From Algoriphagus sp. (GTDB lineage Bacteria; Bacteroidota; Bacteroidia; Cytophagales; Cyclobacteriaceae), in NCBI GenBank assembly GCA_018336015.1, contig JAGXQZ010000027.1, forward strand, positions 62,001 to 126,000: DNA of 64,000 bases, read 5' to 3'. This document shows, one piece after another, positions 5,234 through 44,367 of this stretch; position 1 is the first letter of the stretch; each line of letters begins with the position of its first letter. The notes below the pieces were generated by a model. It had not been told where the DNA came from. It worked only from the letters and a program-made list of their open reading frames with translations, and ran no database searches. A program made the translations under genes and the position numbers.

Positions 5234-5251
5234 AAACGGTGAAAAGTGAGG

Positions 5252-16923: not shown

Positions 16924-18237
16924 ATGGAAGCTACTGTAAAATTTGTATTAAGACGCGATTTAGAAGATAAGAAGGGTCAGCAACCTTTGATGGTGGTTGT
17001 CCATTTGGGCGGACAAAGGAAATTGATTTCAACTGGAATTAAATTGATTCCCGATTTATGGTCTGCTGAAAAGCAAGAGATCGTGGATATGACCGCAAAA
17101 CAAAAAACAAACCTGGAGAAGAAGTTTGGATCTGTTGTCCCTCCAAAAAGCTATCTGCTCCAATATCAAGATGACTTACTTGAAATCAGAACTAAAGTCA
17201 GACAAACTGAAGAAGCATTTCGAGCAAAAGAAGAACCCTATGACCTCGAAATGCTGATAGCAAAGATCAAGGAAACCAAGAAGGAGGTAATCAAAAAAAC
17301 TGAGCCAACGGAGTTAGTTTATGATTTTATCGATCAATACATTCAAGAAAATGGAATGACGAGGGTAAAGGGCAGCATGGTGGTTTATAAATCATTGAAG
17401 AAACATCTTAAAAATTTTCAAGAAAAGACTGGTACTCCTATTCGATTTGAAAACATGGATTATTCGTTTATGCAGAGTTTTCAAAATTTTTTGATTGACT
17501 GGCAAGAGATACACCCTAATACTGGAAATGTTAAAAAATTGAATAACATCACTATAGCAAAACAAATAAGCACACTGAAGACATTTTTGGGCTATGCAAG
17601 ACGAAGAGGAATAAAGACCCATGATGGCTACAAAGAATATTCGGTTAAAAAGGATCGACTTGAAGTAATTGCACTTAATCAGAAAGAATTCGATGCGTTG
17701 TATGCGCTTGATGTGAGTGCGAATCCAAGATTAAGTCAAGTCAAAGATATTTTTCTTTTCAGCTGTGTGACAGGCTATCGATTTTCAGATTTACTCCAGC
17801 TTAAAAGAGAGCATATCAAGCAAAACGAAATTAGATTGACAATCACAAAAACTAAGGAGCCGTCCATCGTTCCTCTGACTCGGATATCCAGAGAAATATT
17901 GAAGAAGTATGAGGAAAGGGTTCTTCCGCTACCAATGATCTCAAACCAAAAATTTAATAAATACGTCAAAGAACTATGTGAATTAGCTGAAATTAATGAT
18001 CCAGTAGAGATTGTGAGATATCGAGGAGCGGTAAGGGATTCCAAAATTTATCCCAAACATGAACTTGTAAGCGCGCATACCGGTAGAAAAACATTTGTCA
18101 CCCTTTCACTGGGTAAAGGAATTCCGGCTGAAGTGGTAATGAAGATCACTGGACACTCAGACTATAAAAGTTTTAAACGATACGTTGAGGTAGATGAGGA
18201 AAGAAAAAGAGATGCAATGAGCCTAGCGTGGGACTAA
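16924..18237 (+). CDS. int: Tyrosine recombinase (ICE integrase)
   Basis: This 437-residue integrase inserts and excises the element. The N-terminal 130 residues form the arm-binding-like domain usual in Bacteroidota phage/ICE integrases (KFVLRRDLEDKKGQQPLMVVVHLGGQRKL, with the three-stranded sheet pattern). A SAM-like core-binding domain spans about 125-245. The catalytic domain shows Arg286 (TGYRFSDL), His385 and Arg388 (HTGRKTF), His411 (GHSDYKS) and the nucleophile Tyr420 (FKRYVEV). All catalytic residues are present. The gene points away from the adjacent attachment core into the element. A membrane-protein gene follows 12 bp later. Confidence 0.93.
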   Translation: MEATVKFVLRRDLEDKKGQQPLMVVVHLGGQRKLISTGIKLIPDLWSAEKQEIVDMTAKQKTNLEKKFGSVVPPKSYLLQYQDDLLEIRTKVRQTEEAFRAKEEPYDLEMLIAKIKETKKEVIKKTEPTELVYDFIDQYIQENGMTRVKGSMVVYKSLKKHLKNFQEKTGTPIRFENMDYSFMQSFQNFLIDWQEIHPNTGNVKKLNNITIAKQISTLKTFLGYARRRGIKTHDGYKEYSVKKDRLEVIALNQKEFDALYALDVSANPRLSQVKDIFLFSCVTGYRFSDLLQLKREHIKQNEIRLTITKTKEPSIVPLTRISREILKKYEERVLPLPMISNQKFNKYVKELCELAEINDPVEIVRYRGAVRDSKIYPKHELVSAHTGRKTFVTLSLGKGIPAEVVMKITGHSDYKSFKRYVEVDEERKRDAMSLAWD

Positions 18238-19455: not shown

Positions 19456-19562
19456 AGCGAGTCCTTTCGAACTCGCCCAATTCTTTTGTGGATTCAGTAT
19501 CCTGTTTGACGACTTAAAGATACTGTTTCTGCATTCTTTATCAAACCCTTACATGCAGAATT

Positions 19563-20585
19563 ATGACTTCAATAAATCAAAGTACAAGTTCCAATGATCC
19601 GAATTCCGGTGACTTTCTAATCATCAAATCTGCCAATGAATGGATGGATGAAGCCAAGACCAAGCCTATTCCTAAAAAGATCTTTGGTCCATTTTGGTAT
19701 GAGGAGGAACTATGCATCCTCTTCGCTGATACCAATCAAGGGAAATCTCTCTTAGCAGTTCAAATCATTGATAGTGTCTCTAAAGGTATTCCAACACTTG
19801 GATTGGAAATGGAACTTAAGCCCTCAAAGGTGATCTATTTTGACCTGGAACTTACTGCCAAGCAATTTGAAATGAGATATGCTCAATACGATAAGGAAAG
19901 AGATATCCTTTTTGATCATTTCGAATTCAGTGACCTTTTCCTGAGAGCAGAAATCAATCCATATGGATTTGATGAGGCTTTTGAAGAGTATGAAAGCTTT
20001 CTTTTTAAAGAGATAGAGGTTCAAGCCTCCAAGTCCGGCGCTAAAATCCTCGTAATAGATAATCTGTCTTGTGTGATTTCAGATAATGAGAAGGCTAGGA
20101 ATACCACTCCTTTTTTAATAAGGCTAAACAATCTGAAGAAGATTCATGGCTGGTCGATTTTGCTCATTGCCCACACTCCAAAAAGGAACCTGTTTGCTCC
20201 GATCAATAGAAACGATATCCAAGGCAGCAAGAGCTTTATTAATCTGATTGATTCTTGTTTCGCTGTAGGAGAAAGTCAAAAAGACCCTTCCATTAAATAC
20301 TTGAAACAAATAAAAGTCAGGTATGGTGCTTTTAAATATCCCTCCGAAAATGTCCTAGTCTGTAAAATCGGCAAAGACTCAAATTTCAGTTCGTTTAGGT
20401 TTATCCAGTTTGGAAAAGAGGCGGATCATCTAAAGCAGTTGAATCCAGTCGATAAATCTCAAATGAAGACCAAGGCCTTGGAACTCAAAAATGAAGGCAA
20501 TACCAATGTGAAGATAGCTCAGGAACTCGGAGTGTCAGAAGGAGCTGTGAGGAAATGGCTCAAGCAACTTGAGTTAGACGAGTAA
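19563..20585 (+). CDS. RepA/DnaB-like AAA ATPase with C-terminal HTH
   Basis: This 340-residue protein of the AAA_25/RecA-fold family is used by plasmids and ICEs as replicative helicase or RepA. Walker A is the variant ADTNQGKSLLA (about 55-65). A Walker B-like strand KILVIDNLS lies near 163, and LLIAHTPKR near 205 matches the sensor strand. The last 50 residues form a helix-turn-helix (KALELKNEGNTNVKIAQ, then LGVSEGAVRKWLKQL), an unusual addition that could bind the 9-bp repeat array found 23 bp after its stop. The primase-like gene follows, so the two probably work in element replication. Confidence 0.75.
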   Translation: MTSINQSTSSNDPNSGDFLIIKSANEWMDEAKTKPIPKKIFGPFWYEEELCILFADTNQGKSLLAVQIIDSVSKGIPTLGLEMELKPSKVIYFDLELTAKQFEMRYAQYDKERDILFDHFEFSDLFLRAEINPYGFDEAFEEYESFLFKEIEVQASKSGAKILVIDNLSCVISDNEKARNTTPFLIRLNNLKKIHGWSILLIAHTPKRNLFAPINRNDIQGSKSFINLIDSCFAVGESQKDPSIKYLKQIKVRYGAFKYPSENVLVCKIGKDSNFSSFRFIQFGKEADHLKQLNPVDKSQMKTKALELKNEGNTNVKIAQELGVSEGAVRKWLKQLELDE

Positions 20586-20607
20586 GCTCAATCGTAAAAA
20601 TCGAACT

Positions 20608-20643
20608 GTACGAGGGGTACGAGGTGTGCGAATCGTACGATTT
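20608..20643. repeat. Array of four 9-bp direct repeats (iteron-like)
   Basis: Four tandem 9-mers occur in exact register: GTACGAGGG, GTACGAGGT, GTGCGAATC, GTACGATTT (20608, 20617, 20626, 20635). The shared core is GTRCGA. They lie in non-coding DNA between the AAA and primase-like genes, followed by a pyrimidine-rich stretch and AT-rich DNA. This is the layout of replication iterons or a cooperative operator. Confidence 0.6.
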
Positions 20644-20752
20644 CCACTTACCACTACCCCTCTTTTTCTTTTTGCAGGTAATCCGACAATTCACGACAAA
20701 AGGAAAGATAAGACTCCTTTAAATCAATAAGATGTATTATTTATGTATAGAT

Positions 20753-20771
20753 GTATTTATATAAAAATGTA
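20753..20771. repeat. 19-nt repeat, copy 1 (leader of primase-like gene)
   Basis: GTATTTATATAAAAATGTA occurs here and exactly again at 43940-43958. This copy ends 6 bp before the primase-like start codon. An exact 19-nt non-coding match 23 kb apart within one element suggests a shared regulator-binding or replication site. Confidence 0.55.
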
Positions 20772-20777
20772 AATATT

Positions 20778-21794
20778 ATGAACTACTCTGAAGTAAAACA
20801 AGCGGCTGCCAGAATCAAACAGGAATTCCCTGTGCTGGATTATTTCCATAGCCTGGTCAGATCAGGATTTCTGAAATTCGAAGGCATCCACGGGAAAGAA
20901 TATTTTTTTGGTTTCCTGGAACAGCGGACTGGCTCGATTGCCGTAGATGACAAAGCGAATGTGTGGTATGATCATGCCGCAGGAAAGGGCGGAGACGTTA
21001 TCGCAGCAGTCCAGGAATTTGAAAACAAAACCTTCTTCGAATCAGTGGAAAGCCTCTCTGGATCAGTTCCGGTAAGAAAATTTGTTCCTAGACAAAAACC
21101 TGAGATTGCCCAGAAAATAGTGGTGGAAAAGGTGGCTGAGATCAGCCATGATGCACTTATCCAATACATTCGAGGCAGGGGTATTGATCTTCAGGATATT
21201 GCTCCTTTCGGTAAAGAGGTGCATTGGCGGAATAAGGGAAAGCGATATTTCGCAGTGGGTTTTCCAAATGAATCGGGTGGATGGGTACTTCGATCCTCTA
21301 TTTTTAAGGGGAACATTCTTGGAGGAGGTACTTCAATTCGAATCCTTGGGACTGTTAAAGGCATCAAAGTTTTTGAAGGCTGGTTTGACTTTCTGAGTTA
21401 TCTGAAGCTTTCTAGAGCTACAGATTTCAAAGCCATTATTCTGAATAGTACTGCCAATCTCAGTTTTCGCTTAATTCTGGATGTTTTGGAAGAGTGTGAA
21501 GTAGTTGATCTCTATTTGGATAATGATGTTACGGGAGAGAAGTGTACAATTAATTTTATTAGAGTAGCCCAGCTATTCCGTTATTGCCTTCAAAAAGGAT
21601 CACCTACCGATTGGGATTTGGAGGCATTGAGGGGGAGTAGGGACAAAATTGGAATTCTCCTTTCCAATATGAAAATCATTCCTTCAGAAGCGATGGAAAT
21701 CTGGAAGATCCAAACGAATGTTTCTGATCAAAGATGTCACTTTTCTGGTTTTGAGGATGTTAATGCATTTTTGGTGGGTGGGGTTCACAAGTGA
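20778..21794 (+). CDS. Primase-like protein with CHC2-type and TOPRIM-like domains
   Basis: The ATG at 20778 is chosen over 20751 because the protein then begins MNYSEVKQAAARIKQEFPVLDYF, as mobile-element primases do, and the 19-nt repeat stays in the leader. The N-terminus resembles the CHC2 zinc-binding fold without all cysteines (FFGFLEQRTGSIAVDDKANVWYDHAAGKGGDVI, interrupted by turns). Residues of about 200-260 form a TOPRIM-like domain with IKVFEGWFDFLS (the Glu motif) and VDLYLDNDVTGEKC (the DxD-type motif). It probably makes primers during element transfer or replication and partners the preceding AAA protein. The loss of clear zinc ligands is noteworthy. Confidence 0.8.
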   Translation: MNYSEVKQAAARIKQEFPVLDYFHSLVRSGFLKFEGIHGKEYFFGFLEQRTGSIAVDDKANVWYDHAAGKGGDVIAAVQEFENKTFFESVESLSGSVPVRKFVPRQKPEIAQKIVVEKVAEISHDALIQYIRGRGIDLQDIAPFGKEVHWRNKGKRYFAVGFPNESGGWVLRSSIFKGNILGGGTSIRILGTVKGIKVFEGWFDFLSYLKLSRATDFKAIILNSTANLSFRLILDVLEECEVVDLYLDNDVTGEKCTINFIRVAQLFRYCLQKGSPTDWDLEALRGSRDKIGILLSNMKIIPSEAMEIWKIQTNVSDQRCHFSGFEDVNAFLVGGVHK

Positions 21795-21870: not shown

Positions 21871-22833
21871 ATGTTATATAAAGGTAAATCTGAAGTCAGG
21901 CCATCTGAAAGAAAAGTTGCAGTACCAGTTAGAATCATGAATACGCAATCCGTCCAGGCACTGGCAGATTTGGAGCAGAAATTAATTCTTAAAGCCTATA
22001 GCCCATCTACAGTAAAGAACTATTGATCATCATTAACTCAATTTTTATCTTTTTTTGAAAGTCGAAATATTAAGGATGTGACAAAGGAAGAAATAGAAGC
22101 CTTTGTCTATCATCAGATCACCAAATATAAAATTTCAGAAAGTGCGCAAAATACGTTGATAAACGCGATTAAGGCGTATTATGAACACGTGCTGGGTAGA
22201 GAACGGACTATTTATGATATCCAACGACCTAAGAAAAGCCTAACGCTGCCCAATGTACTCAGTCAGGAAGAGATCAAAGCAATCCTTTGCAGTGTGGAGA
22301 ATATAAAGCACCGAGCTGTATTGATGCTTATTTACAGTGCTGGATTAAGAATAAGTGAAGCTATCAACCTTTCGTCGGAATATCTAAACCTAAGAAAACG
22401 AGATATTCATTCTGATGATGGTTACATTTTCATCAAGGGAGGAAAAGGAAAAAAAGATAGGAAAACTGTGCTTTCACCAATTCTGCTAGTAATGCTTAGA
22501 GAGTATTACAAAGCTTATAAGCCCAGTTATTGGCTATTTGAAGGGCAGGAAGGAGGTCAGTATTCAGCGACAAGCATTCAAGCCGTTTTTCGAAGAGCAA
22601 TAAAGAATAGCAATTCAAACCCTTGGGCGACTGTACACACTTTGCGTCACAGTTTTGCAACTCATCTACTTCAAAAGGGGACAAATTTGCGTTATGTGCA
22701 AGCTCTCCTTGGTCATGAAAGTAGTAAGACCACTGAAATATATACGCATGTGCTATCGATATCAAATAAAAATATTCAAAGTCCACTTGATGGGATCGAC
22801 GAAATCCTTAATTTGGTCACAGCAGATCCCTAA
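21871..22833 (+). pseudogene. XerC/D-like tyrosine recombinase interrupted by an in-frame TGA
   Basis: One frame runs from ATG 21871 to 22833 with a single stop, TGA at 22024-22026, in YSPSTVKNY-stop-SSLTQFLSFF, exactly where the SAM-like core-binding helix of XerD-type recombinases lies. CGA (Arg) to TGA would explain it. The catalytic half is intact: Arg in AGLRISEA, HTLRHSF, LLGHES and Tyr in IYTHV. A GTG at 22078 could restart translation of a 251-residue protein lacking part of the core-binding domain. Upstream, the frame is open only from about 21817, so the N-terminus is also truncated. It marks the boundary between element backbone and AT-rich cargo. Confidence 0.8.
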
Positions 22834-22918: not shown

Positions 22919-24829
22919 ATGGAAGGAAAACAAACAGCATTATTTGACGAGAGATTCCTCGAATCATTTACTGGTACTGGAATAGTGAGTGAACCAAAGA
23001 TTGCTATAATAGAGCTAATTGCAAATTCTTGGGATGCAGGTGCCTCTAAAGTGGAAATCAAATGGCCTAACGAATCAGACAATTCTTTCTTCATCAGAGA
23101 TAATGGACATGGGATGTCTGAATCCGAATTTGATAAACGTTTTAGAAAATTGGCATATAATAGGCAAAGAGATCAGGGTATTTATGCTGAAATACCTAGA
23201 GAAAACTCATTTATTTCAAAACGACTTGCTTTTGGAAAAAACGGCAAAGGACGATTTGCAGGGTTTTGTTTTGGTCCGTCTTTCTTTGTTAAAACATGGA
23301 AAAAGAATAATGAAGTTACTGTAAAAGTATTTAAAGGGAATGAAGGCGAAATATTCTTCCAGAAAATAGATAGTAAAGAAGGAGTAACTGGACATGGAAC
23401 AATGGTTTATGCAGATAATGCCAAAATTCCCATAATCTCGGCTAATTTAATCAAAAGAGAGATTGGTATGAGATTCCTTACTGACCCAAATTTCGAAGTT
23501 GCAATTGATGGAGAAAAAATAACCTTTCTAGATATACCAGAGAAAAATATTAAGGAGTTTATTCTAACCGTGGAAGGTTTTGGAGAAGTTAAACTAATTG
23601 CAATCGATACTTTATCAACTGACAAAACTACCCATCAACATGGCATTGCATGGCATGTGAATGGGAGGTTAGTTGGTGAGTGTTCGTGGAAAGGAACTGG
23701 TATGGATCATCTTATTGACGGAAGACGTATAGAAGCCAAAAGATTTATCTTTATCGTTTTGGCAGATATTTTAAATTCCGAAAAAAACATACATCCGGAT
23801 TGGTCTGGATTTAAATCAAATAGTGACGAATTTCAATCAGTAAATGAGGTTGTACTCAACAAGGTTAAAGATTTTGTTTTGGATATTTCTAAAGAAAAAC
23901 GTAAAGAAACTTTTTATGACATCAAATCACAAAATAATCAAACTCTTAAAAGGATTGGGCTAATTGGTCAAACAAAATGGAATTCGTTTATAACTCAAGT
24001 GCAGGAGGAATGCCCATCAATTAATGAAACAGAACTTGCAAAGCTTGGGACAATCCTAGCCAATTTGGAGGAATCACAATCTCAATTCAGCCTTATACAC
24101 GCTCTATATGAACTTGATCCAAATCAACTGGATAATCTCAATGAGATTCTAGAAGAATGGAATGTGGATCTTGCAAAAATAGTTTTGGATGAACTTCAAT
24201 TTAGGCTAAAATTATTGGAGCAGTTAAAAATCAAAGTACTTTCAAAGGATACTGATGAGGTTCAGGAGTTGCAACCTTTATTCAAAAAGGGCCTATGGAT
24301 TTTTGGACCCGAATACGAAACTATCGAATACACCTCAAATCAAGGAATGACATCAGTAATACAAAATTTATACGGAGGAATAGAGAAAGGCTCAAGAAAA
24401 AGACCAGATTTCGCAATTTTAAGTGACAGTACAGTAGGTCTCTACTCATATCCTAAATATGATGATGAAGGCGGTGAAATTGGCGTAGATAGACTTACGA
24501 TAGTGGAATTAAAAAAGCCAGGTGTTCCCCTTAGTTCAGAGCAAAAAAGTCAAGCATGGGGATATGTGAAGGAGTTAACAAAAAAAGGATATGTCACTCC
24601 TGAAAATAAAATAACATGTTTCGTTCTCGGTTCGGAAATTGATCCACTTGAAGCTCAGGAAACGCATCAAGGGGGAACTAAAATAATTCCTTTACTTTAC
24701 GATACTGTAGTAAAACGGGCTAACAGCCGATTACTAAATCTTTATGACAAAGTAAAAAATTCACCATTTCTCGAAAATGTAAGACTGGAAGAAGAGCTTA
24801 ACGGTCAAATGAACTTATTAGAAAATTAA
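22919..24829 (+). CDS. MORC/GHKL-type ATPase with C-terminal PD-(D/E)XK-like nuclease site
   Basis: This 636-residue protein has a GHKL (Hsp90/MutL/MORC) ATPase fold with all three boxes: N box ELIANSWDAGA (Glu32, Asn36, Asp39), G1 IRDNGHGM (61-65) and G2 lid GKNGKGRFAGF (106-112). A middle region with MORC-like beta strands follows (to about 270), then helices. The C-terminus carries RPDFAIL (Asp497) and TIVELKKPG (Glu530, Lys532) with a following Gln (KSQAWGY), the pattern of PD-(D/E)XK nucleases of the Shedu type. Prokaryotic MORC-like ATPases are known from restriction and conflict loci. Beside a SIR2-like gene it is likely a defence ATPase-nuclease. DNA is AT-rich, unlike the element backbone. 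Confidence 0.8.
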   Translation: MEGKQTALFDERFLESFTGTGIVSEPKIAIIELIANSWDAGASKVEIKWPNESDNSFFIRDNGHGMSESEFDKRFRKLAYNRQRDQGIYAEIPRENSFISKRLAFGKNGKGRFAGFCFGPSFFVKTWKKNNEVTVKVFKGNEGEIFFQKIDSKEGVTGHGTMVYADNAKIPIISANLIKREIGMRFLTDPNFEVAIDGEKITFLDIPEKNIKEFILTVEGFGEVKLIAIDTLSTDKTTHQHGIAWHVNGRLVGECSWKGTGMDHLIDGRRIEAKRFIFIVLADILNSEKNIHPDWSGFKSNSDEFQSVNEVVLNKVKDFVLDISKEKRKETFYDIKSQNNQTLKRIGLIGQTKWNSFITQVQEECPSINETELAKLGTILANLEESQSQFSLIHALYELDPNQLDNLNEILEEWNVDLAKIVLDELQFRLKLLEQLKIKVLSKDTDEVQELQPLFKKGLWIFGPEYETIEYTSNQGMTSVIQNLYGGIEKGSRKRPDFAILSDSTVGLYSYPKYDDEGGEIGVDRLTIVELKKPGVPLSSEQKSQAWGYVKELTKKGYVTPENKITCFVLGSEIDPLEAQETHQGGTKIIPLLYDTVVKRANSRLLNLYDKVKNSPFLENVRLEEELNGQMNLLEN

Positions 24830-24916
24830 TAGGCCATAACAATTTGTAGAAATTAGAGCCTTTCATTGCTACAGCACAACCAAAACTACGATTCTTACAT
24901 TGACGTTATTTTTTAA

Positions 24917-26122
24917 ATGAAAAGAGCAATAATACTTGGAGCAGGGGCTTCTAAAAGCTATAACAAATCTAAAACAGGTGTGAAAATGCCTGTTGCATTA
25001 GACTTTTTTGAAACCTTTAGAAAACTTGAAATTTCAGAAAATCCTTGGGTATTAATTGGACATTTAATTAACTATATATCTGATAGAGATAAAGTTGATG
25101 CACTCCAATTTTTGAATTTTTCTGAAGATATCGAATTACTGCATTCTGAAATTCAAAAAAAATTGTACAAGGCTTTACATCGTGGAAATATTTTTAGACA
25201 CCCAGATGGTATTCAACAATTAAAGGCTTATAATGAATTGATATTTCTTTTTGTAAGTGTAATAAATGAAATTCAGAATGGTGATGAATCTTTAACTCAT
25301 AAAAATTTAGCTAAACAACTTTCTACGAGAGACTCAATCATAACTTTTAATTGGGATACTTTGATGGACAGAGCTTTAATGAAAGAAACTGATTGGAATA
25401 GTGGAAATGGATATTTTGTACAGCCTTCTGCCGTTTTCAGGGATGATTGGATTTATAATGATGATCAATCTATTGAACGAAATTTCCCGAAGTTGTTAAA
25501 ACTTCACGGTTCTAGTAATTGGATTACAAGTCATATTATACCTAGCAAAGAAGGCAAATTTGAATTAAGCCAGGAAACTAATGTAGAAGACTTCTATGTC
25601 TTCGAACGAGCAACTAAACCATATGCAACCTATGCTGGTAGATACATGTCTGGATATGAAGAGTTCTCATATGGCTATTATCCACCAAATCTTCCCTTGA
25701 TAGGTAAACCTGCTCCTGAAGGTTATACAATAGTAAAAAGCAGAATTAAAAACCCTTTGATGCCTGAAGGAAAATCGAATGATAAAGGTTTGTATTCTAT
25801 GCCATTAATAATTCCCCCGGTAAAAAATAAAGAATACGATTTATTTGGAACATTATTTACTCGAGTTTGGGCTGAAGCACAAAGAGAAATTGAAAACGCA
25901 GAGGAAATCTATATAATAGGATATTCATTTCCTGTAACTGATATTAGAACTGATCAATTGTTTAAATCGGCATTTCTCAAACGGAAAACATTTCCAAAGA
26001 TTATTATCCATAATCCCAACCCGGATTTGATCTTTGAAAGATTCACATTTGATTATGGCATACCCTCATCTTACATCATCGTCAAAAAGGAATACTTTGA
26101 TGAAACCTTTAAATTTGAATAA
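24917..26122 (+). CDS. SIR2-like (NADase-type) protein
   Basis: This 401-residue protein of the SIR2-like superfamily starts with the nucleotide-binding motif AIILGAGASKSY (5-16). ITFNWDTLMDRAL (near 144) carries the Asn-Asp pair, LLKLHGSSNW (near 196) the catalytic-type His, and IYIIGYSFPVTDIRTD (near 335) the second Rossmann strand typical of SIR2_2 domains. In anti-phage systems such domains deplete NAD after infection. There is no fused sensor domain, so sensing could be done by the preceding MORC-like protein, 87 bp upstream in the same direction. Both genes share low GC. The catalytic function is inferred. Confidence 0.8.
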   Translation: MKRAIILGAGASKSYNKSKTGVKMPVALDFFETFRKLEISENPWVLIGHLINYISDRDKVDALQFLNFSEDIELLHSEIQKKLYKALHRGNIFRHPDGIQQLKAYNELIFLFVSVINEIQNGDESLTHKNLAKQLSTRDSIITFNWDTLMDRALMKETDWNSGNGYFVQPSAVFRDDWIYNDDQSIERNFPKLLKLHGSSNWITSHIIPSKEGKFELSQETNVEDFYVFERATKPYATYAGRYMSGYEEFSYGYYPPNLPLIGKPAPEGYTIVKSRIKNPLMPEGKSNDKGLYSMPLIIPPVKNKEYDLFGTLFTRVWAEAQREIENAEEIYIIGYSFPVTDIRTDQLFKSAFLKRKTFPKIIIHNPNPDLIFERFTFDYGIPSSYIIVKKEYFDETFKFE

Positions 26123-26263
26123 AAACTGTTCATTTAATAAAAAATAAATAATAAAAAACTTGTAACACCACCTATGCCGCTCCACTTAGGGATAATACTC
26201 ATAGCCAAAAGTTGTGCTGCATACAAGGATAGCTGACTGAAAAATTATTACCACTGCAGGAAA

Positions 26264-27262
26264 TTGAAGATTCTCTATAAATATCGCCCACTTTCAGAAT
26301 TTCTTTTTAAGGAACTTTACTATCAAGAGTTGTACTTCGCTTCCTACTTCGAATTGAATGACCCGCTTGATTTGTCGGCTCGGATTGAATTTAGTTGTGA
26401 GAAATCCGAGCAAGTAGAATATCTGATTTATTTTCTTTTTAAGTCAACCCTATCGCTCAATGATGCCTTAACTGACAAAAAAAGGAAGAACGACAAAAAC
26501 CTACTTGCATTCAATGACAACAGAACAAAGGTTGCAGAATTTCAGCAAACGGTTTTTGAATATATAAACCAGCTAAAAGATGAAAAAGAAAGAGTTTGGG
26601 ATATTGATATTAAAAGCATTATTGATTCCGCATCAAAGAAACACAATCTAGAATTCCAATTTGATTCAGAGAATTTCAAAAGCGTACTTAAACGTATATC
26701 GTCAAAATTTCTTGAAAATAGTTATGCTACTTGCTTTTCAGAAAGCAATGATGATTTTTTAATGTGGTCGCACTATTCCAGCAAGCATTCAGGAATCTGT
26801 TTAGAGTTTGCGTTAGAAAATTCAGGTCTTTTCCCTTACATCGGGAAAGCTCGAAGGAAATTAGATTGCAAAAAATACAAAGAAAGACTATCCAAATGGG
26901 ATTTAGAAACCCACGTGTATTGGGACAGAATTAAAAAAGTTAATTATGAGAGCGAACAGCCGTTTATAAATTTTTTCGAGTTTTCGCAAGTTTTTGAAAA
27001 TGAACACGATTGTGATTTGATAGGTCTTTCAAAACCTTGGACACATCATTTTGCTCATCAATTAGAATGGGTTTTCTCTACCAAAACTGCACCGTGGAAA
27101 TATGAAAAGGAATGGAGAGCGATTCATATAAACTTTGGAAATCCCCAAGAACCAGAAGAAAGAATCCGACATTATCCACTTGAAAGTCTGAAAGCTATCT
27201 ATTTTGGTATGCGAACTCCAGAAAACGTAAAGAAGAGAATCTTTCACATTTTTGATAAGTAA
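26264..27262 (+). CDS. DUF2971 family protein
   Basis: This 332-residue protein has the start MKILYKYRPLSEFLFKEL, then LYFASYFELNDPLD, FLMWSHYSSKHSGICLEF and EKEWRAIHINFG, the four conserved blocks of DUF2971. The function of this family is unknown, but it recurs in defence islands. A TTG start at 26264 is chosen because no ATG or GTG lies between it and the upstream in-frame stop, and the N-terminus then fits the family exactly. It lies 141 bp after the SIR2-like gene in equally AT-rich DNA and could be a third component or separate cargo. Confidence 0.75.
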   Translation: MKILYKYRPLSEFLFKELYYQELYFASYFELNDPLDLSARIEFSCEKSEQVEYLIYFLFKSTLSLNDALTDKKRKNDKNLLAFNDNRTKVAEFQQTVFEYINQLKDEKERVWDIDIKSIIDSASKKHNLEFQFDSENFKSVLKRISSKFLENSYATCFSESNDDFLMWSHYSSKHSGICLEFALENSGLFPYIGKARRKLDCKKYKERLSKWDLETHVYWDRIKKVNYESEQPFINFFEFSQVFENEHDCDLIGLSKPWTHHFAHQLEWVFSTKTAPWKYEKEWRAIHINFGNPQEPEERIRHYPLESLKAIYFGMRTPENVKKRIFHIFDK

Positions 27263-33823: not shown

Positions 33824-34417
33824 ATGGAAACAACAATGGACATTAAAGACGATGTAAGTGAGGTCATCCTAAATTCCGCTAAAACCATCTTTGCCAGATA
33901 TGGTTTTAAGAAAACCACAATGGATGAAATAGCTCATGCTTCAAGAAAAGGCAAAAGTTCCATCTATCATTACTTCAAAAGCAAAGAAGATATTTTCAAG
34001 GCAATCGTTGAAAAGGAATCGGATGTGTTAAGTGCTGCCATAGCAAAAGCAATCAATGCAGAAACTACCTCTGAAAAAAAAATACGGGCTTATGTTTTAA
34101 CAAGAATGAAAGTTATTAACAAATTAACCAATCTATACAGTGCTTTAAAAGATGAATATCTGGAGCATTACAGTTTCATTGAAAATGTCAGAGTGAAGTA
34201 TGACACCGAAGAGGTTAACACCATCAAAGGAATATTGAAGACGGGTGTTGAAGAAGGTGATTTTAAAATAGAAGACATCAACCTCACCGCCTTTGCCCTG
34301 GTCACAGCACTGAAGGGTTTAGAATATCCTTTATTCATTAAAAACAATTATGCAAAAACAGAAAATCGGTTTGAAGGATTGCTGAACGTGCTTTTTTATG
34401 GAATCATAGCGAGGTAA
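33824..34417 (+). CDS. TetR/AcrR family transcriptional regulator
   Basis: This 197-residue protein has an N-terminal TetR helix-turn-helix (AKTIFARYGFKKTTMDEIAHASR, then KGKSSIYHYFKSKEDIF) and a helical ligand-binding C-terminal domain. A second in-frame ATG four codons in is also possible. It is divergently spaced from nothing: it lies just before the RND efflux genes in the same direction. Matching inverted repeats stand before it and before the efflux operon, so it most likely represses both and is released by an efflux substrate. Confidence 0.92.
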   Translation: METTMDIKDDVSEVILNSAKTIFARYGFKKTTMDEIAHASRKGKSSIYHYFKSKEDIFKAIVEKESDVLSAAIAKAINAETTSEKKIRAYVLTRMKVINKLTNLYSALKDEYLEHYSFIENVRVKYDTEEVNTIKGILKTGVEEGDFKIEDINLTAFALVTALKGLEYPLFIKNNYAKTENRFEGLLNVLFYGIIAR

Positions 34418-34436
34418 TTTTTTTTTAACCCATTAT

Positions 34437-34459
34437 CGACCAAAAAACTAAAATAGTCT
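34437..34459. promoter_or_regulatory. TetR-type operator, second (imperfect) copy before the efflux operon
   Basis: CGACCAAAAAACTAA, the same 15 bases as at 33779, is followed by AATAGTCT in place of TTTGGTCG, so the left arm is perfect and the right arm partial. It ends 23 bp before the adaptor start codon. Confidence 0.65.
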
Positions 34460-34482
34460 AATTGTAATTAATAGAACTAACA

Positions 34483-35523
34483 ATGAATATGAAAGTCAAT
34501 AAACTGCACATCGCTCTTTGGTTTTCCGTTATCCTGGCCGGATGCTCGTCAGGAGAGAATACATCATCGGAAAGTGCGAAGCACATTTCCCTTAATGTTA
34601 AAACAGAAGAAGTAATTCAATTTAAAGGAAGCCATACAGTTGGGTATTCCGGGGTTGTGGTGCCAAAGAAAAATACACCACTCAGTTTCTCGGTGCCGGG
34701 AACCGTTTCGAAAATAGCAGTAGAAGAAGGACAGCAGGTAAACAAAGGCCAGTTGCTGGCACAACTAAATCCATCGACTATGGAGAACACCTACCAGATG
34801 GCATTTCAAAAATTACAACAGGCACAGGATGCGTATAACCGGTTAATGCCGATGCATGAAAATGGTACCCTGTCTGAAATAAAATGGGTGGAGGTAGAAA
34901 CAGGATTAAGTCAGGCAAAATCGGCTACAGCCATTGCAAAAAAAGGACTTGACGATACAAAACTATATGCTTTTACAGCGGGTGTGATAGGTAAAAAATC
35001 GATTCAGGAGGGAGAGAATGTATTTCCAAATATTACAGTTTTTGAATTATTCGACATCAGTAAAGTATATGTAAAAATTCCCGTACCAGAAGATGAGATC
35101 AGTTCGTTCAAAAAGGGAGATCAGGCCATCATTACTGTTGGAGCTATCTCTAAAACAATCACCGGTATTGTAAGAGAAATTGGTGTTTCGGCTGATATAT
35201 TTTCACACTCCTATCCGGTAAGACTTGAAGTTGACAATTCTGATTTAGCCATTAAGCCGGGTATGGTTTGTACAGTCAACTTTGCAACCCAAAACAAGGC
35301 GACCGGTGTTCTTATCTCTAACAAAGCAATGCAGCAGGATTTACAAGGGACGCAGTTTGTATATGTGATAGAAAATAACACGGCTCAAAAGCGAGCGGTG
35401 AAAACCATTGCTTTAATCGACCAAAAAATTCTGGTCAGCGGAAATTTGAAAGAAGGTGATAAAATCATTGTGGCAGGGCAAGACAAACTTCGCCAGGGCT
35501 CACAGGTAAACATTATAAAATAG
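34483..35523 (+). CDS. RND efflux periplasmic adaptor (membrane fusion protein), lipoprotein
   Basis: This 346-residue adaptor joins the inner-membrane RND pump to the TolC channel. It has a lipoprotein signal ending in the lipobox LAGC (Cys near 22), a lipoyl/barrel-sandwich half with VPGTVSKIAVEEGQQVNKGQLLAQL, a short alpha-hairpin (FQKLQQAQDAYNRLM) and the beta-barrel and membrane-proximal parts (VYVKIPVPEDE, GVLISNKAMQQD). The start at 34483 has a near-by alternative two codons in. It is the first gene of adaptor-pump-channel, 4 bp before the pump gene, and preceded by a TetR-type operator. Confidence 0.93.
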   Translation: MNMKVNKLHIALWFSVILAGCSSGENTSSESAKHISLNVKTEEVIQFKGSHTVGYSGVVVPKKNTPLSFSVPGTVSKIAVEEGQQVNKGQLLAQLNPSTMENTYQMAFQKLQQAQDAYNRLMPMHENGTLSEIKWVEVETGLSQAKSATAIAKKGLDDTKLYAFTAGVIGKKSIQEGENVFPNITVFELFDISKVYVKIPVPEDEISSFKKGDQAIITVGAISKTITGIVREIGVSADIFSHSYPVRLEVDNSDLAIKPGMVCTVNFATQNKATGVLISNKAMQQDLQGTQFVYVIENNTAQKRAVKTIALIDQKILVSGNLKEGDKIIVAGQDKLRQGSQVNIIK

Positions 35524-35527
35524 CATC

Positions 35528-38500
35528 ATGACGACACATAAGTTTAATGTCATAGAATTGGCTATGAGGTATAAGCAAATAGCCATTACCATAACAAGTC
35601 TGTTGGTGTTGTTTGGTATATTTTCTCTTTGGGTAATGCCCCGAAATGAATTTCCTGAGTTCATCATTCGACAGGGATTGATCATCGGTGTATTTCCGGG
35701 GGCTACTTCCGAACAGGTGGAAGACCAATTAGCCACCAAAGTGGAAAGTTTTCTTTACGGTTTTAAAGAAGTAAACCGGGAGAAAACGTATTCCATATCC
35801 AGAGAAGGAATGTTGGTTGTGTTTGTGGAAGTAAACAACAACGTAAAAGACCCTGATGGCTTTTGGGATAAAATAAAATTCGGCCTCAGCGAATTAAAAT
35901 TACAGTTGCCACCGCAGGTACTTGCGCTGATTGCCAACAATGATTTTGGCGATACAGCCGCTTTGCTACTTACCATACAATCAGAAAGCAAAACCTATAA
36001 AGAGCTGGAGAAAGAATTGAAAATTATCGAAACGGAATTGCGAAAAATAAAGGCCGTTTCTAAAGTAAAACACTACGGAATTCAACAGGAACAGATAGCC
36101 ATTTATCTGGATAATGCTAAACTGGCTTATTACGGTGTGCGTCCTATTACGGTGCTTGCCGCCATGCAATTGGAGGGTGCTGTGTATTACGGTGGCGAAC
36201 TCAATAATTCAGAATTGATTACACCGATACATATTCCAGCAAATTTCAAATCGGAAGAAGACATTAAAAACCAAATCGTGTATGCCGATCCTGCTGGTAA
36301 CATCATCCGGATGAAAGATATTGCTACTGTAGTTAGAAAATATAAGGAACCTGACTCTTTCATAAAAAACAATGGGGCAAAAAGCTTGCTGGTGTCATTG
36401 GAAATGCAACCTGGCAACAACATTGTTGATTTTGGGAAACAGGTGGATCAATCCCTCGCTTCCATCCGGACTAAAATTTCTTCTGATGTAAATCTGGATA
36501 AGATTGCTGATATGCCAACAGCCGTAGATCGTTCCATTATTCATTTCCTGAAAGAATTTTTCATTGCTATTATCGCTGTGATCATCGTTACGATGTTGTT
36601 ATTGCCTTTACGGGTAGCTGCGGTTGCCGGCGTAACGATCCCCATTACCATTTTTATAACCGTAGGCATTTTATATTTATTAGGTGTTGAACTACACACC
36701 GTTTCGCTTGCAGGATTAATCGTTGTATTAGGCATGGTGGTGGATAATGCCATTGTTGTTATTGATAGTCATGTAGAAAAATTAGATCATGGCGAAACGC
36801 CCTGGGATGCTGCCTGGAAAAGTGCGACAGAACTTTTTGTTCCGGTATTTTCTGCTACCCTTGCCATTATCGCTACCTATGTTCCTTTGGTATTTTTCTT
36901 ATCTGGAATGACCGGTGATTTTGTTGGTTCTCTGCCTGTTACCATTGGTGTGGCCTTGTTTACGTCTATGCTGGTGGCCTACTTTCTGGTTCCTTACATG
37001 AGCTATGTATTTATCAAAAAAGGAGTCAGGAAAGGAGAAGCGGAAGAAGCAAAAGCCGATAAGAAGTCACTACTCGATTGGGTGCAACAGTTTTATAATA
37101 GCACACTCGAAAGTGCCTTCAGAGGACCAAAGCTGACCATGCTGGTAGGCTTACTCTCCATTTTATTAGGCGGAGCAATCATGGCACTGTTGCCACGACA
37201 GTTATTTCCAAAAGTGGAGAGGAATCAGTTTGCCGTAGAAATTTATCTACCGGAAGGATACACACTTGCCCAAACAGTTGCTGTTGCCGATAGTATGGAG
37301 GTATTGCTCATGAGTGATAGTCGGGTGGTTAATGTAGCCTCCTTCATGGGTACCAGCTCACCACGTTTCCACACTACCTACGCACCTAATTTCCCATCAA
37401 AAAATTATGCGCAGTTGGTAGTCAATACCATAACAGCCGACGATGCCGTGGCAATATTGGATGAATATGAAGCAAAACGCAATATTTTTCCAAATGCCTA
37501 TGTGCGCATGAAACAATTGGATATGCTGAGCACAACCGCTCCGATTGAAGTACGGATTTCCGGTAACAACATTGATTCCATAAAAGCCATCGCTGAAAAT
37601 GTAAAAAGTATAATGCAACAAAACGATGCTGTTATATGGGCGCGTACGGATTATCTTAATAAAAGGCAGGGTGTGCGTGTAGATGTGAATGATGAACTCG
37701 CCAACCGGTTAGGGTTGACCCGAGGACTAATCGCCTCTTCAATAGCATCTGGTTTCTCTGGGATACCTATAGGTACAGTTTGGGAAGGAGATTATCCGGT
37801 AGATGTGAAGGTCATTAATCCAATCGATAAAAGAGATGGTTTTGATGATATCGAAAATCAAAATGTAACATCCCTGTTTTTGAGTGCCACAGTTCCTGTG
37901 CGACAGGTAACTACCATAACCACCGACTGGAGCGAAGGGCAAATTATCCGCAGGAACGGTGTACGAACTATTACGGTGCGAGCGGATGTAAAAAGAGGGG
38001 TGCTACCTTATAAAATATTAGCTGAACTAAAGCCGGAACTCAAAAAAATAAAAACAGGTTCCGATGTTCAACTCACGTATGGCGGTGAGGAGGAAAGTGA
38101 ATTGGAAAATTATACACCGCTGAGCAAAGCCATGCTGGCAGGCGTAATGTTGATTTATTTTATTTTGCTTTTCCAGTTTAAGCGATCGAGATTAGTCTTT
38201 TTAGTGATGCTGACCATGCCTTTAAGTTTTCTGGGTGCGGCTATGGGTTTAGTACTTACCGGTTATCCTTTTGGGCTTACCTCCTTCCTCGGAATAATGA
38301 GCCTTATGGGTATCGTCGTGCGCAATGGCATTATCCTGATTGATTATGCTGAAGAGCTCCGCAACAAGAACGGAATGTTATTGGCGGAAGCAGCGGTGGC
38401 TGCCGGTAAGCGTAGAATGCGCCCCATATTTCTCACTTCTTTTGCGGCTGCCGTTGGCGTGGTGCCGATGATTGTAAGTGGCTCATCTCTTTGGGGGCCT

Positions 38501-38602
38501 TTAGGTGCTGTAGTTTGCTTTGGACTGCTGATATCCATGATACTTACCTTGTATGTGCTGCCTGTGATGTATCATCAATCACTTAAGAAATCAATTGCTT
38601 AA
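35528..38602 (+). CDS. RND family efflux pump, inner-membrane permease
   Basis: This 1024-residue proton-driven RND transporter has the usual two-fold layout: a TM segment near 20, a large porter domain, TM segments 2-6 around 340-480 including GLIVVLGMVVDNAIVVID with the family's GxxxDxxIVV aspartates (proton relay), a second porter and docking domain, and a second TM block around 870-1010 (GIMSLMGIVVRNGIILIDYAEE). The length is that of AcrB/MdtC-like pumps. It is flanked by its adaptor and TolC genes, so a complete tripartite pump is encoded. The substrate is unknown. The neighbouring redox enzymes suggest organic or phenolic compounds. Confidence 0.95.
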   Translation: MTTHKFNVIELAMRYKQIAITITSLLVLFGIFSLWVMPRNEFPEFIIRQGLIIGVFPGATSEQVEDQLATKVESFLYGFKEVNREKTYSISREGMLVVFVEVNNNVKDPDGFWDKIKFGLSELKLQLPPQVLALIANNDFGDTAALLLTIQSESKTYKELEKELKIIETELRKIKAVSKVKHYGIQQEQIAIYLDNAKLAYYGVRPITVLAAMQLEGAVYYGGELNNSELITPIHIPANFKSEEDIKNQIVYADPAGNIIRMKDIATVVRKYKEPDSFIKNNGAKSLLVSLEMQPGNNIVDFGKQVDQSLASIRTKISSDVNLDKIADMPTAVDRSIIHFLKEFFIAIIAVIIVTMLLLPLRVAAVAGVTIPITIFITVGILYLLGVELHTVSLAGLIVVLGMVVDNAIVVIDSHVEKLDHGETPWDAAWKSATELFVPVFSATLAIIATYVPLVFFLSGMTGDFVGSLPVTIGVALFTSMLVAYFLVPYMSYVFIKKGVRKGEAEEAKADKKSLLDWVQQFYNSTLESAFRGPKLTMLVGLLSILLGGAIMALLPRQLFPKVERNQFAVEIYLPEGYTLAQTVAVADSMEVLLMSDSRVVNVASFMGTSSPRFHTTYAPNFPSKNYAQLVVNTITADDAVAILDEYEAKRNIFPNAYVRMKQLDMLSTTAPIEVRISGNNIDSIKAIAENVKSIMQQNDAVIWARTDYLNKRQGVRVDVNDELANRLGLTRGLIASSIASGFSGIPIGTVWEGDYPVDVKVINPIDKRDGFDDIENQNVTSLFLSATVPVRQVTTITTDWSEGQIIRRNGVRTITVRADVKRGVLPYKILAELKPELKKIKTGSDVQLTYGGEEESELENYTPLSKAMLAGVMLIYFILLFQFKRSRLVFLVMLTMPLSFLGAAMGLVLTGYPFGLTSFLGIMSLMGIVVRNGIILIDYAEELRNKNGMLLAEAAVAAGKRRMRPIFLTSFAAAVGVVPMIVSGSSLWGPLGAVVCFGLLISMILTLYVLPVMYHQSLKKSIA

Positions 38603-38613
38603 AATTCTTTAGA

Positions 38614-42780: not shown

Positions 42781-43050
42781 CTAAATCCCATAATGCTTAG
42801 CAACCGCCGTCAGAATCATATCTCTCATTGAAGCCTTGGTTTCCCTACCTATCTCATATTTTAACTTATCGAACATATCAGTTGGAATCCGGAGTGAGTA
42901 GATTTTCACATCTTCTGTGTCAAACTCTTTGCTTGATGATTTTTCTTTTTGTTGTATCTCAGATTCAGGGTTGATCAGCATTCCGAGACCTCTTTGTTTT
43001 GCGCCAAGGTTTTTGTTTCCCTTGCTAGGATCGTTCAGTTTCTTCGCCAT
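42781..43050 (-). CDS. Small ParA-partner protein, ribbon-helix-helix type
   Basis: The 89-residue protein has a disordered, basic N-terminus (KKLNDPSKGNKNLGAKQRG) and a C-terminal half VKIYSLRIPTDMFDKLKYEIGRETKASMRDMIL, matching a ribbon-helix-helix or ParB-like small partner (strand SLRIP followed by two helices). It starts 7 bp after the parA stop and so belongs to the same unit. It is probably the DNA-binding partner that loads onto a centromere-like site in the element. Only the motif and position support the call. Confidence 0.7.
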   Translation of the reverse strand: MAKKLNDPSKGNKNLGAKQRGLGMLINPESEIQQKEKSSSKEFDTEDVKIYSLRIPTDMFDKLKYEIGRETKASMRDMILTAVAKHYGI

Positions 43051-43057
43051 ATTTTTA

Positions 43058-43804
43058 TCAGTTTAACTTGCTTAAAATTTCATCGACCAGCAGTTCATAA
43101 TCCTTAGCTCCGTTCGAGTCTGGTGCATAGTCAAATATGCTTTGTCCCTGCAGCTGTGCTTCGGCCAATGCTACGTTGATTCGGATTTTGGTGTCGAACA
43201 CTTTATCCTGGAGATCCTCGGTGAGTTTCTCCACAATGGTTTTGGTCAGGATTCGGTTTGGGTTGATTTGGGTAATAAACACTCCACCGATTTCCAATTT
43301 ATCGTTTAGGTTGTCCCGGACTTCTTTCACTATGCCCAAAAGCCGGTCCACTCCTTTGTAAGCAAAGTACTCTCCTTGTAATGGTAGCAAAATGGTGTCA
43401 CTCGCTACCATGGCATTGACGGTCAATAACCCAACCGAAGGAGGGCAGTCAATGATGATGTAGTCGTATTCTGAGCGGATAGGCTTTAGGAGTTTATGGA
43501 GGATTTGCTCTCTTCCAATTTTGGATACAATCTCCATTTCAGCTCCCAACAGATCGATGGAGGAGGGAACCAAGTCCAGGTTTTCGGAGACATTAAGGAT
43601 CGGTAACTTTTTATTCTCCCGAATGGAATCATAAACAGATAATTCAGGATCACCTTTTCCCAGTCCCTCAGTCAGGTTTGCTTGGGAATCGATATCCAAC
43701 AACAAAACTTTGAAACCTTTTTTGGCAAGCCCAGCACCGATGTTTATGGAGGAGGTGGTTTTACCAGTTCCTCCCTTGTGATTCATGATGGAGATAGTTT
43801 TCAT
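43058..43804 (-). CDS. parA: ParA family partition ATPase
   Basis: This 248-residue deviant-Walker ATPase has the motif ISIMNHKGGTGKTTSSINI (KGGTGKTT), the second Walker-A-type region LLDIDSQANLTEGL and the Walker B YIIIDCPPSVGLL, all with family spacing. TVNAMVASDTILLPLQGEYFAYKG is typical of ParA/Soj. The length is normal. It points leftward with the small RHH-type gene after it. Such pairs stabilise plasmids and the circular form of ICEs. Upstream lies an exact 19-nt repeat also found before the primase-like gene. Confidence 0.93.
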   Translation of the reverse strand: MKTISIMNHKGGTGKTTSSINIGAGLAKKGFKVLLLDIDSQANLTEGLGKGDPELSVYDSIRENKKLPILNVSENLDLVPSSIDLLGAEMEIVSKIGREQILHKLLKPIRSEYDYIIIDCPPSVGLLTVNAMVASDTILLPLQGEYFAYKGVDRLLGIVKEVRDNLNDKLEIGGVFITQINPNRILTKTIVEKLTEDLQDKVFDTKIRINVALAEAQLQGQSIFDYAPDSNGAKDYELLVDEILSKLN

Positions 43805-43939
43805 ATGGATTGGGATTTTTTTTCAAAGGCCATATGGAATGCCCTGATAAAAGATCTCAAGCTGATAGAAATTTCGGAATGGGCATTTCATAACTCAGTT
43901 GGTTTAACTAAAGATATGAAAATGTGTTTCCATAAAAAA

Positions 43940-43958
43940 GTATTTATATAAAAATGTA
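43940..43958. repeat. 19-nt repeat, copy 2 (parA upstream region)
   Basis: GTATTTATATAAAAATGTA is identical to 20753-20771. This copy lies between the stop of the XRE gene and the parA start, about 136 bp upstream of parA. It is a plausible shared binding site for the XRE protein or the ParA partner. Confidence 0.55.
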
Positions 43959-43959
43959 T

Positions 43960-44367
43960 TTACTTTTGATTGATTCTGGACTCCAAGTTCTCGATGATCA
44001 GGTTCTTTGATCGCACCAATTCACTGTATGAGTTATTCTCAGCAGCTAGGCGTTTCACTTCATTTTGAAGTCTTTCGATTTCTGCTTGGAGCCGGTCAAA
44101 AAAGTTTTGCTCGCTCCCTAGTTTGTCCGAGTCCATTTCACTATCCTCGATGGTGGTAATAAACATTTCTCCCTCACCCGTAGCTAACCAACTTAGGTTG
44201 ATGTTATGTTCTCGCTTTAGGAGGATCTTAATCTTTCCAGAAACGTTGTTCTTGCCTCGTTCTATGTCTGAATATCCTGCCTGAGTCAAGCCCAAAGAAG
44301 CCCCGAAATCTGCTTGGGTTTCTTTTAAGAATTTCCGGATGATTTTTAGGCGTTGATTTTCAGTCAT
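43960..44367 (-). CDS. XRE-family transcriptional regulator with coiled coil
   Basis: The 135-residue protein begins TENQRLKIIRKFLKETQADFGASLGLTQAGYSDIERGKNNVSG with a normal XRE/HTH_3 fold (helices 2-3 TQADFGASLG and TQAGYSDIERGK). The C-terminal half (about 85-130) is a coiled coil rich in Leu, Glu and Asn (LQAEIERLQNEVKRLAAENNSYSEL), likely for dimerisation. It is located between parA and the divergent conjugation module and may regulate both. AT-rich DNA with dyads lies just upstream. Confidence 0.9.
   Translation of the reverse strand: MTENQRLKIIRKFLKETQADFGASLGLTQAGYSDIERGKNNVSGKIKILLKREHNINLSWLATGEGEMFITTIEDSEMDSDKLGSEQNFFDRLQAEIERLQNEVKRLAAENNSYSELVRSKNLIIENLESRINQK

Follow-up and report, generated by a model that had tools for sequence, protein, structure and literature searches.

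The window analysed here is a stretch of 64,000 nucleotides from an Algoriphagus sp. genome (GenBank assembly GCA_018336015.1, contig JAGXQZ010000027.1) and forms part of an integrative conjugative element (ICE) of Algoriphagus. A cargo slot of this element opens with three genes, all on the plus strand: gene 1 (22919..24829, 636 aa), a paraMORC3-type GHKL ATPase with a C-terminal region of the PD-(D/E)XK nuclease type, gene 2 (24917..26122, 401 aa), a minimal SIR2_2 protein and candidate NADase, and gene 3 (26264..27262, 332 aa, TTG start), a DUF2971 protein. In an earlier sequence-only reading they had been grouped into one unnamed defence unit. We give a probability of about 0.8 to a different explanation, namely that they are unconnected pieces of defence cargo in a hotspot of the ICE and that gene 1 is a stand-alone nuclease of the paraMORC3 or GHKL-Shedu type, which would restrict phage DNA alone. 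Three co-directional, AT-rich genes had been described, and this holds: all are uninterrupted open reading frames (ORFs) with a G+C content of 0.35, 0.32 and 0.34 (genes 1, 2 and 3) vs 0.41 for the window, and the gaps measure 87 bp between genes 1 and 2 and 141 bp between genes 2 and 3, as had been reported.

Gene 1 and its place among known families

Gene 1 consists of a GHKL ATPase region (residues ~1-330) and a PD-(D/E)XK-type nuclease region (~440-610), the first of which is matched by HATPase_c_3 (PF13589) at 1.1e-18, over the Pfam cut-off. We aligned gene 1 with 17 homologues of 31-58% identity, taken from 25 non-Algoriphagus loci after omission of truncated, fragmentary or partial copies (L036, L038, L043, L044, L046, L048, L049) and of a split one (L069). 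Throughout the 18 sequences E32, N36, D39, D61, G63, G65, G106, G109 and G111 of the ATPase are invariant, and so are R495, D497, E530, K532 and Q545 of the nuclease region, an invariance that is beyond chance as judged from this alignment. The GHKL boxes (E32/N36/D39, D61-GHG and G2 at 106-112) and the nuclease site (D497, E530, K532) had thus been placed correctly from the single sequence. From the same alignment E467 is a candidate for the first glutamate of the E-D-ExK motif. The structure model of the full protein reached a predicted local distance difference test (pLDDT) score of 76, and the best 50 of its 495 Foldseek matches were MORC, Hsp90/TRAP1/HtpG and MutL proteins, with alignments of 352-464 columns, E values of 3e-14 to 3e-12 and TM-scores of 0.24-0.28 by query length. 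PDB sequence searches with gene 1 or gene 2 singly gave no match, and with a gene 1 profile the best 60 of 150 matches were Hsp90/HtpG/TRAP1 and MutL-type proteins, aligned in the ATPase domain.

Among described families, paraMORC3 is the closest in architecture. Iyer, Abhiman and Aravind (2008, PMC2292703) define it as a GHKL domain, an S5 domain and a C-terminal E-D-ExK nuclease, and describe a stand-alone subset in Proteobacteria and Bacteroidetes as having no conserved neighbours. Gene 1 shows the N-terminal GHKL domain with its conserved ATP-binding motifs, what may be an S5-type middle region, and the C-terminal E-D-ExK motif, the fold of which finds weak support in the structure models; no architectural difference was found in this comparison, which was made by architecture and not residue by residue with the members given in PMC2292703. 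The stand-alone character is found as well, as the relatives of gene 1 have diverse neighbours, with no SIR2 gene in 33 loci and no DUF2971 gene in the gene 1 loci of 16 genomes. The MORC-specific motif GhXhhpXXRhl of the S5 domain was present in 0 of the 18 sequences, searched as a strict pattern with no true MORC protein as positive control, and gene 1 was for this reason rejected as a MORC proper. Thus 'paraMORC' fits gene 1 better than 'MORC-type', and of the label given in the sequence-only reading, a MORC-type ATPase/PD-(D/E)XK nuclease, the ATPase and the nuclease stand by sequence and the prefix does not.

The second relative by architecture is VcSduA from Vibrio cholerae WASA, reported in 2025 and called a type I-D Shedu (PMC12137116). 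According to this source, which also counts 543 homologues, VcSduA protects alone against phages, and mutants of its ATPase and of its nuclease are inactive. Gene 1 and VcSduA are both single genes that join a GHKL ATPase to a C-terminal PD-(D/E)xK nuclease, and the tested residues E27 and K557 of VcSduA are the presumed counterparts of E32 and K532. Unlike VcSduA, gene 1 stays below the cut-off of the Shedu family model SduA_C and comes from an Algoriphagus ICE. The link of gene 1 to Shedu is drawn from two homologues that do pass SduA_C and from a moderate profile-profile match. The first homologue (L061) shares 22% identity with gene 1 in residues 29-602 (pairwise E 4e-28) and scores 32.5 bits with SduA_C, the second (L060) is 25% identical over residues 28-500 and scores 28.3 bits, both over the cut-off, and the two are 49% identical to each other. 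For the profile comparison we aligned 13 Shedu proteins, 12 of 17 matches (L101, L102, L103, L106 and L107 being omitted) and the annotated Shedu gene of L064; hhalign with the gene 1 nuclease then gave E values of 5.8e-6 and 2.8e-6, each for a single comparison, at probabilities of 85-88.

On sequence grounds we file gene 1 as a paraMORC3 protein that would work like a type I-D Shedu, and since its SduA_C score is borderline we do not claim a Shedu signature for it. It most likely belongs to an already described class of predicted single-gene DNA-cutting enzymes. As far as gene 1 by itself is concerned, the earlier statement that no named system was known no longer holds, because its two-domain architecture is shared by paraMORC3 (PMC2292703) and VcSduA (PMC12137116). 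A pair of paraMORC3 with SIR2 was not found in the literature on paraMORC3, on GHKL/MORC/MutL proteins and on Shedu, where the pair itself was not a search subject and subscription papers were mostly uncovered. By analogy with GHKL biology, ATP binding would close the GHKL dimer of gene 1 around DNA, and closure of the dimer would gate the C-terminal nuclease with its putative active site D497, E530 and K532. As in the relatives cited above, the nuclease would then cut invading phage DNA without genes 2 or 3 and spare the cell. Nuclease activity, ATP gating and the phage target are what we infer for gene 1 from these relatives, and a role in phage defence is plausible.

Several observations weigh against this assignment. 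The model of the C-terminal region is weak (pLDDT 64) and gave no Foldseek match below E 0.001; its leading alignments have TM-scores of ~0.2-0.3 and root-mean-square deviations of 14-17, and non-nuclease folds follow close behind. SduA_C reaches 15.7 bits in gene 1 against a cut-off of 27 bits, and this only when a slice of 286 aa is searched and not with one of 184 aa; at E<=0.01 SduA_C (DUF4263) is found in 0 of the 18 aligned sequences. The likeness to VcSduA is drawn from its published description. Genes 1-3 are co-directional, and a terminator-like site between them was not found in our scan. Moreover, two relatives of gene 1 (L036 and L069), that is 2 of 19 genomes or records with fetched neighbourhoods, have a C5 methyltransferase nearby, and a gene of Escherichia phage PhiR44_1 that is annotated as ParaMORC3 adjoins dcm, has no SduA_C match and is matched by the PADLOC model REase_II at 2.3e-91 along most of its length. 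As to the fold of the C-terminal region, the leading Foldseek matches, weak as they are, were the nickase BspD6I (5.2e-3), a PD-(D/E)XK enzyme, and Shedu (8ti8, 5.8e-3, probability 0.85), with TM-scores of ~0.3 and root-mean-square deviations near 15. A PD-(D/E)XK nuclease, as proposed earlier, is the best reading of this region, with structural evidence that is weak.

Neighbourhoods of the gene 1 relatives

The methyltransferase neighbours of relatives speak for a rival explanation, in which gene 1 belongs as an orphan to the BbrUII/HgiDII type II restriction enzymes, sequence-specific and with its cognate methyltransferase encoded elsewhere. In Mucilaginibacter (L036:6855-9656) the C5 cytosine methyltransferase (PF00145, 1.9e-72) lies 3 bp upstream of the gene 1 homologue, whose ORF ends early at 555 codons, and the two resemble a restriction-modification pair; in L069 the distance is ~2.8 kb. 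In BLAST, the clear part of the match between gene 1 and the PhiR44_1 gene beside dcm is limited to the ATPase domain, though the nuclease motifs align. With such neighbours and the REase_II match, some relatives of gene 1 may act in classical restriction-modification. Gene 1 itself is matched by REase_II at 3.1e-8 over residues 20-126 and by the NCBIfam model of the BbrUII/HgiDII family (NF050001) over residues 30-223. The latter match reaches 77.2 bits vs a cut-off of 550 bits, and gene 1 was therefore rejected as a member: what it has in common with BbrUII/HgiDII at 77 bits is the GHKL ATPase domain, its C-terminal half is unmatched and, unlike in that family, no adjacent methyltransferase is present in the window. 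No methyltransferase was recognised among those cargo ORFs of the window that were read or scanned (part of them was scanned), and C5 methyltransferases near gene 1 are confined to the two neighbourhoods counted above. We regard an orphan type II enzyme as unlikely, and it partly overlaps with the preferred explanation, since gene 1 would be a restriction nuclease acting independently in either case.

Other relatives have defence-type genes near them, by which we mean adjoining or within ~3 kb: a Shedu gene (L064), AbiEii genes (L063 and L067), an MmeI-type enzyme (L066), and HEPN and reverse-transcriptase genes (L028 and L030). Two IMG/VR contigs (L068:7331-9331 and L069:6812-8794) carry the gene 1 homologue between what we read as terminase/packaging and portal genes, the copy in L069 being split into two ORFs. 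Gene 1 also matched 22 plasmid records, six of which were read (H1, H2 and H5-H8, with H5 lacking annotation). We conclude that the family is a mobile gene moving alone, probably for defence. These surroundings, including the phage-like contigs, argue against the view that genes 1-3 serve non-defence functions of the ICE such as maintenance, recombination or DNA repair, or are decaying cargo. Such a view could draw on the location in an ICE beside a broken recombinase and on the frameshift of gene 1 in one of eight copies (see below), but the catalytic residues are intact and gene 3 corresponds to a defence candidate listed in PADLOC, and we consider it improbable.

Genes 2 and 3 and their linkage to gene 1

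Gene 2 matches SIR2_2 at 3.5e-6 (27.6 bits vs a cut-off of 24.5) and the PADLOC SIR2 models weakly, at best with 1.1e-7. Its SIR2 motifs GAGAS (position 8), FNWD (144) and LHGS (196) are present as first noticed and are conserved in a Rhizobium homologue of 49% identity over 398 columns. The Asn and His of these motifs are the putative catalytic residues. Gene 2 is a candidate SIR2-type NADase and probably a NAD+-consuming effector. In its SIR2_2 domain and its Asn and His motifs it is like the SIR2 phage-defence NADases DSR2 and Nezha (SIR2-HerA; PMC11559045). It differs from these NADases in its weak PADLOC SIR2 matches, and from Nezha in that no HerA-type partner was recognised: the HerA family had no match in the neighbours of gene 2, nor in nine scanned cargo proteins and ParA, a scan that left out the cargo ORFs at 30081, 32700, 34483, 38614, 41306 and 41900. 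In contrast to DSR2, gene 2 is too short, at 401 aa, to include a C-terminal sensor of the DSR2 kind. Gene 3 matches DUF2971 (PF11185) at 5.7e-8, over the Pfam cut-off, which agrees with its first description, and PADLOC PDC-S31 at 2e-32, the latter being a computational candidate only. No homologues of gene 3 were found in the viral contigs searched, and no paper linking DUF2971 with phage was found in the literature search.

Searches with gene 2 found in 395 Bacteroidota genomes only the element with the three genes, and 291 genomes of the order yielded, besides the element, two weak matches of short length; a search of 229 genomes of the class of genome G460 was empty, which carries little weight as no positive genome was known there, and the viral contigs and phages searched contained no homologue. 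The only full-length relative found outside the element is the Rhizobium homologue, encoded on a plasmid of Rhizobium leguminosarum (L062), and the fetched stretch contains no gene 1. In this stretch (L062:2076-10209) the SIR2 gene is immediately preceded by genes for a UvrD helicase, a multiubiquitin-E2 protein, an E1-JAB protein and a 238-aa product; they may form a ubiquitin-like defence operon in which the SIR2 protein is a partner.

Linkage was examined in 33 loci of the gene 1 family outside the element (L028-L049, L059, L063-L070, L111 and L112), of which 32 are distinct since L059 covers the region of L036 in the same species. Nine of them have little flank on one side (L035, L038, L040 and L042-L047), six match gene 1 in part only (L036, L038, L043, L044, L048 and L049) and L111 is a distant relative. 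With a hidden Markov model (HMM) built from SIR2_2 proteins without gene 2, but with the Rhizobium relative included, SIR2 ORFs were found at E<=1 in none of the 33 loci vs 7/7 Algoriphagus control loci. The HMM without the Rhizobium relative gave the same result, 7/7 controls and again 0/33, and three short loci (L019, L060 and L061) were likewise empty of SIR2. Searches with genes 2 and 3 by phmmer returned nothing in the 33 loci. In whole-genome Pfam scans of 16 non-Algoriphagus genomes (16 of 22 non-Algoriphagus loci), SIR2_2 was present in nine and DUF2971 in five at E<=0.001, and no fetched SIR2_2 or DUF2971 locus overlaps a gene 1 locus; for SIR2_2, overlap was checked for the 20 of 29 rows that came with loci. 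The idea of gene 3 being a third partner was rejected on the missing overlap in the 16 genomes and the empty phmmer search, and the caution of the sequence-only reading that it may be unrelated was justified.

The three genes do occur together in the near-identical DNA of eight Algoriphagus genomes, that of the window and seven others. From window position ~24 kb to 43.6-43.8 kb the identity is 99.97-99.99% in three copies with longer fetched flanks, and gene 1 shows zero base differences in six of the seven other copies. The TOPRIM gene left of the three genes is present at 98-100% in 8 of 72 Algoriphagus genomes, with coordinates that fit the eight copies. Since the DNA is near-identical, the eight co-occurrences would reflect one recent horizontal event and are best counted as such, not as eight observations of a conserved pair. 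The window copy departs from most others mainly before 20.6 kb, while L022 differs in the TOPRIM gene too; the differences at 19559-20600, in and before the AAA gene, point to recombination in the left portion of the element. In Algoriphagus algorifonticola (L027:8001-9898) a 10-bp deletion frameshifts gene 1, with a stop at codon 244, beside intact genes 2 and 3, an assembly error being possible. The genome of Algoriphagus aquimarinus (G027) carries, in addition to the element, a second full-length gene 1 relative of 31% identity (L019:1438-3348).

From these results the proposal of a two-gene system made up of genes 1 and 2, in which sensing or cutting of foreign DNA by the ATPase-nuclease would activate the SIR2 NADase so that the cell dies, appears very unlikely. 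Its attraction is that the genes are adjacent, co-directional and 87 bp apart, that they occur together in eight Algoriphagus genomes, and that a minimal SIR2 protein with no evident sensor domain plausibly needs a partner. TIR domains can be NADases. In PMC2292703 the GHKL family paraMORC4 has a fused or neighbouring TIR domain, for which a nuclease or ligand-binding role is suggested. The system was rejected after being tested from both sides, with SIR2 missing from all 33 gene 1 loci while every control was positive, and with the only other full-length gene 2 homologue (n=1) standing without gene 1; the eight copies represent one event, and in L027 gene 2 is kept beside a frameshifted gene 1. 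The grouping of gene 1 with gene 2 or gene 3 into one unit thus fails, since homologues were not together outside the eight copies of one element, and rare co-occurrence, which had been named in advance as the finding that would speak against the unit, is what our sample shows with 0/33 adjacencies in independent genomes. Of the function suggested at first, cutting of foreign DNA combined with depletion of NAD, the domains of both genes are supported by sequence and the joint action is not. That in this single lineage an orphan minimal SIR2 was newly recruited beside the paraMORC3 nuclease to give a two-layer system, with DNA capture by the GHKL clamp triggering both cutting and NAD+ depletion on a spreading ICE, is scarcely to be expected. 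Instead, as independent cargo, gene 2 would be a minimal SIR2 NADase candidate and gene 3 a single-gene defence candidate, each in its own right.

The cargo slot of the element

The tyrosine integrase of the ICE is encoded at 16924..18237 on the plus strand (Phage_int_SAM_5 5.2e-18, Phage_integrase 2.4e-13), followed by the AAA and TOPRIM genes of the ICE at 19563-21794 (Pfam scan). The latter, a TOPRIM/CHC2 primase-like gene (20751..21794, plus strand, Toprim_2 1.5e-5) with homologues of 62-82% identity elsewhere in the genus, forms the left border of the hotspot. Next to it, at 21937..22833 on the plus strand, lies a degraded XerC/integron-type tyrosine recombinase (Phage_integrase 4e-36), of which 22078-22833 (251 codons) is open. 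As had been seen, this recombinase beside gene 1 is broken: its frame runs on upstream of an in-frame TGA at 22024-22026, which is present in all seven other copies looked at. The right border is a conserved ICE block on the minus strand (42781..44367) with a ParA-type ATPase (43058-43804, AAA_31 9.2e-58), beyond which the genes resemble, by reading, a mobilisation and conjugation module. The cargo slot between the borders (21795-42780) measures ~21 kb. On the 3' side the three genes are followed by genes of the NmrA, SDR, SnoaL, DoxX and LigB type. The earlier description of an insertion between a broken recombinase and redox cargo is accordingly right for both neighbours; the three genes are not a small insertion but open the slot. 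A promoter and terminator scan of the locus was uninformative, with 12 promoter-like sites vs 18.6 in shuffled sequences and 0 terminator-like sites vs 2.9.

In related ICEs the TOPRIM gene is 65-82% identical in nine fetched stretches (L169-L177, nine of 16 such places), and no ORF there matches gene 1, 2 or 3. Both borders of the slot are visible in L171-L175, where the three ORFs of the right-border block have collinear homologues, while the fetched stretches of L169, L170, L176 and L177 end before the right border. Other cargo fills the slot in L171-L175, made up of several small genes, a protein read as pentapeptide-repeat-like, a DUF4062 protein (3.1e-16) and a gene of 774 aa that Pfam does not match; L175 is a second ICE of the window's own genome. 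The slot between TOPRIM and ParA is thus a cargo hotspot of Algoriphagus ICEs. Its cargo includes defence-like genes in some ICEs and metal-related genes, by reading, in others. The cargo block of the window also contains, at 33824-39984, a TetR regulator and an AcrB-family protein, with neighbours that resemble, by reading, efflux genes of the membrane-fusion and outer-membrane types. At 2564-6922, on the left side of the integrase, ORFs resemble by reading a type III restriction-modification pair of a helicase subunit and a methylase.

In summary, the candidate for a new system is replaced by a smaller claim, a stand-alone GHKL-nuclease of Bacteroidota that is borderline to the Shedu signature, on a carrier ICE that has spread recently among Algoriphagus species. 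The two homologues that pass SduA_C (L060 and L061) are intermediate sequences linking Shedu nucleases to the paraMORC3 branch, and the ICE hotspot is a further place for finding defence genes. If active, gene 1 would be a Bacteroidota case of the GHKL-gated restriction shown in Vibrio.

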